From: Candidatus Dojkabacteria bacterium
GTDB taxonomy: Bacteria > Patescibacteriota > Dojkabacteria > B142 > WJKM01
Assembly: GCA_014729085.1 (NCBI GenBank)
Contig: WJKM01000014.1
Location: forward strand, 1-60,731
Length of the DNA: 60,731 nt
Reading direction: 5' to 3'
The notes under the pieces were generated by a model, which saw only the letters and a program-made list of their open reading frames with translations, made no database searches and had not been told where the DNA came from. Below are positions 36,395 to 44,080 of the stretch, in pieces (positions within the stretch are counted from its first letter, which is position 1; each line of letters begins with the position of its first letter). Made by a program: the position numbers and the translations under genes.

Positions 36395-36634
36395 TTATAT
36401 TAGTTGATTATATGGTAATAAAGCCATATATCTAGCTCTTTTAATAGCTTTGGAAAGCTTTCGCTGGCATCTGTGAGAAACTCCAGTTCTAGAGCTTGGT
36501 ATTATCCTTCCTCTGGTTGTAATATATTTCTTTAAAGTATGCACATCTTTATAATCAATCCTTGAAGGATCATTATTAAATGGACAACTTAAATTCTTTA
36601 CAACTCTACGTCTTCTTTTTCTCTTTTTTCCCAT
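36395..36634 (-). CDS. rpsR: 30S ribosomal protein S18
   Basis: A 79-residue basic protein starting at the ATG at 36634 ([10 protein letters not shown]); the ATG four codons upstream is less likely. The S18 block [22 protein letters not shown]-like (about 30-52), then [26 protein letters not shown], is complete. It is third in the classical rpsF-ssb-rpsR operon. S18 binds S6 on the 30S platform, close to S21 and the 3' end of 16S rRNA. Confidence 0.95.
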
Positions 36635-37180: not shown

Positions 37181-37462
37181 TTAATCTCTCTTAACTCGTA
37201 AAAATCTTAATACCCCATTTATTAAACCAAGTTCACTATCAAACTCCTTAACATTGTCTGTTGGCATTTGCATTTCATATAAAACGTAATAACCTTCATC
37301 ATGTTTCTTAATAGGGTAAGCAAGATGTTTTTTACCCCAGACATCATTTGAAACGATTTCTCCCTGATTTTCTTTTATTAAACCTTCAATTTTGTTTATT
37401 ATTTTGGATTTAATATCCTCAGGTAACAATGGTTTTAAAATAATCATTAATTCGTATTTCAT
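37181..37462 (-). CDS. rpsF: 30S ribosomal protein S6
   Basis: Product of 93 residues from the ATG at 37462 (MKYELMIIL, the family N-terminus); a further ATG lies five codons upstream. GKKHLAYPIKKHDEGYYVLYEM (about 44-65) is the S6 core. It forms a heterodimer with S18, encoded two genes downstream. There is no Shine-Dalgarno sequence. Confidence 0.94.
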   Translation of the reverse strand: MKYELMIILKPLLPEDIKSKIINKIEGLIKENQGEIVSNDVWGKKHLAYPIKKHDEGYYVLYEMQMPTDNVKEFDSELGLINGVLRFLRVKRD

Positions 37463-43758: not shown

Positions 43759-43786
43759 AAACCCTTGAGAGTTTTCTCAAGGGTTT
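43759..43786 (-). terminator. intrinsic terminator after rpsU
   Basis: A perfect 12-bp stem AAACCCTTGAGA (43759-43770) / TCTCAAGGGTTT (43775-43786) with loop GTTT, 20 nt after the rpsU stop. A T-rich stretch follows on the minus strand. Confidence 0.88.
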
Positions 43787-43805: not shown

Positions 43806-44033
43806 TTAGAAAGTTCTTCTTAATATTCCTTTTCGTCTAATTTTTCTTCTATGTGCCCTTCTCTTTTTTTTAGTTTTTTTCCATAGCTTTTTTTTATTGT
43901 GTTTTTTCTCAGCTTCTTTAATGTAATATTGTGTTTTTCGTATTACATTAGGAATATCTTCTCTAATTGCTTCCCTCCATAGAAGCTTTAACGCCTGATC
44001 TATAGGCATTCCATCTGGTACTACTACTGACAT
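43806..44033 (-). CDS. rpsU: 30S ribosomal protein S21
   Basis: A 75-residue, very basic protein starting MSVVVPDGMPIDQALKLL, followed by the family WREAIREDIPNVIRKTQYYIK core and an arginine/lysine-rich tail ending G-I-L-R-R-T-F. S21 sits on the 30S platform beside S18 and S6, near the anti-Shine-Dalgarno sequence of 16S rRNA. It is the only gene in the window with a full Shine-Dalgarno sequence. It lies between rseP and dnaX and ends in its own terminator. Confidence 0.93.
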   Translation of the reverse strand: MSVVVPDGMPIDQALKLLWREAIREDIPNVIRKTQYYIKEAEKKHNKKKLWKKTKKKRRAHRRKIRRKGILRRTF

Positions 44034-44037
44034 TATT

Positions 44038-44048
44038 TCACCTCCTTT
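44038..44048 (-). promoter_or_regulatory. full-length Shine-Dalgarno sequence of rpsU
   Basis: On the minus strand AAAGGAGGTGA, with GGAGG ending 7 nt before the ATG. This is an 8-9-base complement to the usual 16S 3' end. The other genes of the window have no comparable site, so its presence at the gene for S21 is unlikely to be accidental. Confidence 0.9.
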
Positions 44049-44074
44049 AAAGAATTGTAACTTAAATGAAAAGA

Positions 44075-44080
44075 ATTATA
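44075..44080 (-). promoter_or_regulatory. -10 element for rpsU
   Basis: TATAAT on the minus strand, 42 nt upstream of the rpsU ATG. No good -35 sequence is visible at the proper distance, so this is a tentative call. Confidence 0.4.

Follow-up and report, generated by a model that had tools for sequence, protein, structure and literature searches.

Whether ribosomes are specialised is disputed, and the feedback on rpsU in Flavobacterium is among the few clear bacterial cases. The structure of the bS21/16S tail system of the Flavobacteriales is reportedly the subject of a paper by Jha et al. from 2021. In Flavobacterium johnsoniae the 3' tail of 16S rRNA is held by bS21, bS18 and bS6, rpsU is the sole gene with an extended Shine-Dalgarno (SD) sequence, and ribosomes without bS21 translate rpsU better, the feedback having been shown experimentally (PMC9976891). 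Autoregulation by bS21 is described for the Flavobacteriales and other Bacteroidota, with the Chlorobia predicted, the criteria being that rpsU has the strongest SD among the ribosomal protein genes and a dG below -13 kcal/mol (McNutt et al. 2023, PMC9976891). A genome-classifying SD study also covers genomes that keep CCUCC and have few SD genes; Dojkabacteria, Patescibacteria and CPR are not mentioned in its main text.

The DNA examined here belongs to Candidatus Dojkabacteria (WS6), a member of the CPR/Patescibacteria and not of the Bacteroidota; among named genomes, the relatives of its S21 come mostly from Candidatus Dojkabacteria or candidate division WS6. The window is the whole stretch of 60,731 nucleotides that was analysed, and the genome that contains it (G000; 1.6 Mb, 23 contigs) is 95% complete. 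A sequence-only reading had proposed that rpsU is the only gene with a full SD in an SD-poor region, as in Bacteroidia, and that S21 may control its own synthesis.

The rpsU locus and its rank in the genome

Genes (1,422) were called with a hexamer model holding no SD information, the starts coming from our own caller, and for 1,415 of them the 20 nt before the start were scored against the 13-nt 16S tail with duplexfold of ViennaRNA. The features of the window are as follows.

43806..44033, minus strand: rpsU, ribosomal protein bS21, 75 aa (Pfam PF01165, 37.5 bits, cut-off 27; translation)
44038..44048, minus strand: extended SD, AAAGGAGGTGA (from the sequence and the genome's own 16S tail; dG -17.9; kept in the order)
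44075..44080, minus strand: TATAAT, likely the -10 box of the rpsU promoter (read from the sequence; no good -35 match)
43759..43786, minus strand: intrinsic terminator after rpsU, 12-bp stem and CTTGTTTTTT tail (terminator scan)
36395..36634, minus strand: rpsR, bS18, start codon ATG at 36634, without a strong SD (Pfam PF01084, translation)
37181..37462, minus strand: rpsF, bS6, start codon ATG at 37462, without a strong SD (Pfam PF01250, translation)

All three proteins that hold the tail in Flavobacterium are thus encoded in the window, as had been read from the letters and as Pfam bears out. The sequence upstream of rpsU on the minus strand is CTTTAAAGGAGGTGAAATA-ATG, in which 7 nt lie between the GGAGG core (44045-44041) and the ATG (44033). 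The 16S rRNA gene on contig C2 ends in GGATCACCTCCTTTCT, CCUCC being intact as the sequence-only reading had required, and the rpsU SD is complementary to this tail (UCACCUCCUUUCU). Eleven consecutive bases pair perfectly, with a duplexfold energy of -17.9 kcal/mol. The promoter-like TATAAT upstream and the intrinsic terminator after the stop codon suggest that rpsU is probably a single-gene transcript; the terminator scan found two terminator-like structures against 0.2 expected. The leader predicted from the TATAAT is some 35 nt long and unfolded in RNAfold, and the window holds no Rfam elements.

Within the window rpsU has the strongest SD by far, the runners-up being those of an ORF at 1092 (-8.0), of another site (-6.5) and of prmC (-5.9), so that the strong site in SD-poor surroundings is confirmed. 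Across the genome its uniqueness does not hold. Four of the 1,415 scored genes are at or below -15, rpsU tying for the top with the genes for a pyrimidine-dimer glycosylase (-18.1, with the SD 11 nt from the start and inside the end of the upstream gene), for HU (hup, -17.7) and for an Hsp20 (-15.0); the fifth strongest reaches only -11.7. Among the ribosomal protein genes rpsU does stand alone, none other at or below -5 being recognised among the scored genes of this genome, where those outside the cited clusters and Pfam matches were identified by eye from their translations. The relatives G287 and G229, both sampled in part, agree in giving rpsU the strongest SD among these genes.

The Hsp20 gene (G000:C8:117487-117897) has no orthologue in the sampled relatives, nor has the single strong-SD gene for a short unidentified protein in G287 (G287:C9:108285-108749); both were perhaps recently acquired.

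Conservation of the rpsU and hup sites

The terms order, class and the family numbers (f3, f5, f133 etc.) are labels of the genome collection used. A search with an S21 profile found rpsU in eight of the ten genomes of the order. True loss from the other two (G292 and G294) was rejected, as dnaX, which adjoins rpsU, is either lacking there or broken off where a contig stops, and the absence is probably an assembly gap. The SD is kept in all eight genomes with an assembled rpsU, our own included, at -17.9, -17.4, -16.0, -15.4, -15.0, -14.1, -11.6 and -11.6. Six of these, with our own at -17.9, are below -13 kcal/mol, a comparison across programs since our energies are from duplexfold and that criterion was set with free_scan; the two weakest (G289 and G290) share an identical leader and are not independent. 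The GGAGGT core is constant in these leaders and the flanks have diverged. Likewise, the 16S end could be located in seven members of the order (G000, G294, G229, G291, G292, G293 and G287), and every one of them has an intact anti-SD.

Two observations concern the partners of this pairing. In the WS6 genome G293 the S21 gene (G293:C14:67687-67830; L025, L128) stops after 54 residues, either because the protein is truncated or because sequencing introduced a frameshift. The 16S trailer, for example at about 2018-2042 of G229:C3 (CTCCTTTCTAAGGAG), could pair back on the anti-SD (CTCCTT/AAGGAG) and so could, as read from sequence, mask it in the precursor; a similar arrangement occurs in Bacillus.

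Comparison with relatives also brought out a second gene. Among 383 genes of our genome with reciprocal-best orthologues in the relatives sampled in part (G287, 556 kb; G229, 337 kb; G293, 110 kb), the strong SDs that are conserved are those of rpsU and hup alone. The hup loci are these.

G000:C8:195359-195631 (L141): hup with extended SD and upstream hairpin
L142-L150, L202, L204 and L206: further loci of the same kind

The hup SD lies between -17.7 and -21.5 in nine of the ten genomes of the order, in which it equals or beats that of rpsU, and at -10.1 in the tenth. The likeness to Bacteroidia therefore stands only in part: rpsU of our genome is as McNutt et al. 2023 describe, and yet it is not unique, hup being equal or stronger. 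The 16S tail of G287 shows CCUUUUA where the others have CCUUUCU (UUUUA for UUUCU), and in the hup SD of this genome AAAAGG replaces GAAAGG (AAAAGGAGGTGA for GAAAGGAGG). Because the hup SD carries the change that matches its own tail, the extended pairing seems to follow the tail, which supports real extended pairing at hup; one such matching change was found for hup and none for rpsU, in a comparison of the 16S ends of the order, few being located in the rest of the class. Just upstream of the hup SD is a hairpin, often followed by AAATC, of which the stem sequence varies between genomes and the pairing is kept. Nine of the ten hup leaders in the order fold with z at or below -1.9, compared with 9% of random leaders from our genome. 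No Rfam match was obtained at the hup loci, and the hairpin is possibly an unnamed hup leader element. The conserved hup SD partner appears to be new.

In the wider class, a broader S21 profile found the protein in 54 of 58 genomes. Fifty-two rpsU starts were read and scored with the 16S tail of our own genome rather than that of each genome; 26 have an SD at or below -11, and nearly all the others have none. The site is present in every start read in the order (8/8), f5 (8/8), f136 (2/2) and f6 (1/1), in some of those in f3 (5/12) and f135 (2/9), and in none from f133 (3), f134 (1), f4 (1) and f7 (7). The expectation that relatives keep the rpsU SD is thus borne out within the order and fails beyond it, where f7, f133, most of f135 and over half of f3 keep S21 without a strong SD. 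In f7 (loci L020 and L258-L263) there is no SD, and in several genomes the end of a TATAAT box is only some 6 nt from the rpsU start, so that these mRNAs look leaderless from their sequence. The hup SD is present in the readable genomes of f133, f3 and f5 and absent from those of f135, f133 having it on hup and not on rpsU. Since the family distributions differ, the two SDs have been gained or lost separately. No relatives of S21 were found in viral contigs with the S21 query used.

These distributions bear on whether the sites are functional at all. SDs left over from an SD-using ancestor, or arisen by chance, and without present function could account for the lack of an rpsU SD in half of the class genomes read. 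They would hardly be retained in eight of eight genomes in the order and again in f5 while the flanks diverge, and SDs of this strength occur in about 0.3% of leaders, with a distribution that is strong or absent; we consider this very improbable. At or below -14 there are four of 1,402 real leaders, against 0.3 per 1,402 letter-shuffled ones and none in 20 column-shuffled sets. The comparative data support a conserved, selected set of two SD genes, rpsU and hup.

Scarcity of SD sequences and its cause

Judged from their leaders, translation in Dojkabacteria begins at nearly every gene on AT-rich sequence without SD:anti-SD pairing, with the anti-SD intact. Only 15 of 1,415 genes are at or below -8 in the SD windows, compared with 55 in mock windows, which would suggest specific avoidance; this was rejected by shuffling the leaders, 14 being observed at that threshold against 8.8 expected from letter-shuffled leaders and 4.0 with columns permuted between genes. 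As shuffled leaders give as few SDs, the scarcity is explained by AT-rich leaders. AGGAGG-N3-11-TG occurs 380 times in our whole genome and 367 times in the reversed control, and AAGGAGGT-N3-9-ATG was overall not above its reversed control in the 58 class genomes. SD scarcity alone is no demonstration of a hidden anti-SD.

The idea that an SD marks highly expressed genes was also rejected for our genome. The genes tuf (EF-Tu), fusA (EF-G), rplL (L7/L12), groL and those of the S10-spc-alpha operon have none, and their leaders are AT-rich. That rpsU and hup keep a very strong one in such a genome suggests that the SD serves in Dojkabacteria as a special control rather than a general rule.

Control by S21 and other explanations

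The resemblance to bS21 autoregulation in the Bacteroidota lies in an SD-scarce genome with an intact CCUCC anti-SD, and in an exceptionally long rpsU SD that in our genome is top among the ribosomal protein genes with a dG below -13. There are also differences: the rpsU site of Flavobacteriales is typically alone and that of Dojkabacteria has hup beside it, there is no specific SD avoidance once leader composition is allowed for, and the case is in another phylum and known from sequence alone. A further one is in the protein. In Bacteroidia Tyr54 of bS21 stacks on A1534, a feature that Chlorobia lack, and the sequence-only reading had proposed a comparison of such S21 residues. This tyrosine is not matched, the aligned position in Dojkabacteria being Lys53 with Trp51 as the nearest aromatic; the aromatic two residues before Lys53 is conserved and does not differ between S21 proteins whose rpsU has an SD and those whose rpsU has none.

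The likeliest reading, to which we give an even chance, is S21 feedback at rpsU as in Flavobacterium. In 30S subunits that lack S21, or have lost it, the 16S tail would be easier to reach and initiation would favour the extended SD of the rpsU mRNA, whereby S21 would restore its own level. This supposes that the tail is hidden in ribosomes with a full complement of S21, that the signal is S21 itself and that hup answers to this same state. What was observed in its support is the rpsU site itself, its exceptional strength, its conservation and the absence of SDs from other genes of high expression. It is favoured mainly because the same ribosomal protein gene, of about fifty, is singled out as in the Bacteroidota. 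Counted against it, on the sequence comparisons, would be the hup SD, the missing Tyr54, the separate gain and loss of the two sites, the rpsU genes of f133 and f135 without SD and the two members of the order at only -11.6, and in addition SD scarcity needs no occlusion.

Most of these points would fit a constitutive boost, in which every ribosome would have its anti-SD free and a strong SD would simply help rpsU and hup, whose short mRNAs encode small, basic and abundant proteins, to win ribosomes among mRNAs that have no SD, with no sensing of S21. Such a boost would be a feature common to two unrelated genes, it agrees with hup keeping its SD in f133 where rpsU has none, and it is favoured too by the leader composition that accounts for SD scarcity and by the absence of the Bacteroidia Tyr54. 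It does not predict that rpsU should again be the ribosomal protein gene chosen, as in the Bacteroidota, nor that highly expressed genes such as tuf, rplL, groL and the ribosomal operons go without. We hold a boost of these two small proteins to be nearly as likely as S21 feedback, though short of an even chance.

An extension of S21 feedback, possible but put forward tentatively from the sequences, is a regulon of two SD genes in which S21-short ribosomes with an exposed tail would selectively translate rpsU and hup, making the supply of HU depend on the condition of the 30S subunit, and which would have evolved independently of the Bacteroidota.

Era binds the same 16S tail in other bacteria. 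The loss of era and rbfA has been reported for Dojkabacteria (PMC12641178), and in our genome BLASTP with E. coli Era found no Era-like GTPase, the best match being IF2 and the rest weaker and partial. The anti-SD is thus probably not kept for Era. Both observations also bear on the idea that access to the SD is set by some other state of the tail, a 3'-end maturation or assembly step, to which rpsU and hup respond rather than to S21. It would explain the inclusion of a gene for a DNA-binding protein; set against it, Era is absent from many CPR as well, and our check was BLASTP on one 95%-complete genome. We regard this as improbable.

It is plausible that use by rpsU and hup is the reason why the anti-SD is kept. 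Such use would give an SD-poor lineage, reportedly without Era, cause to retain it. The retention of an extended SD by this same gene, rpsU, in a lineage that is SD-poor but unrelated would point to two origins of self-control by S21 or to an earlier one than supposed, and the hup partner raises the question whether the state of the ribosome also sets the supply of HU.
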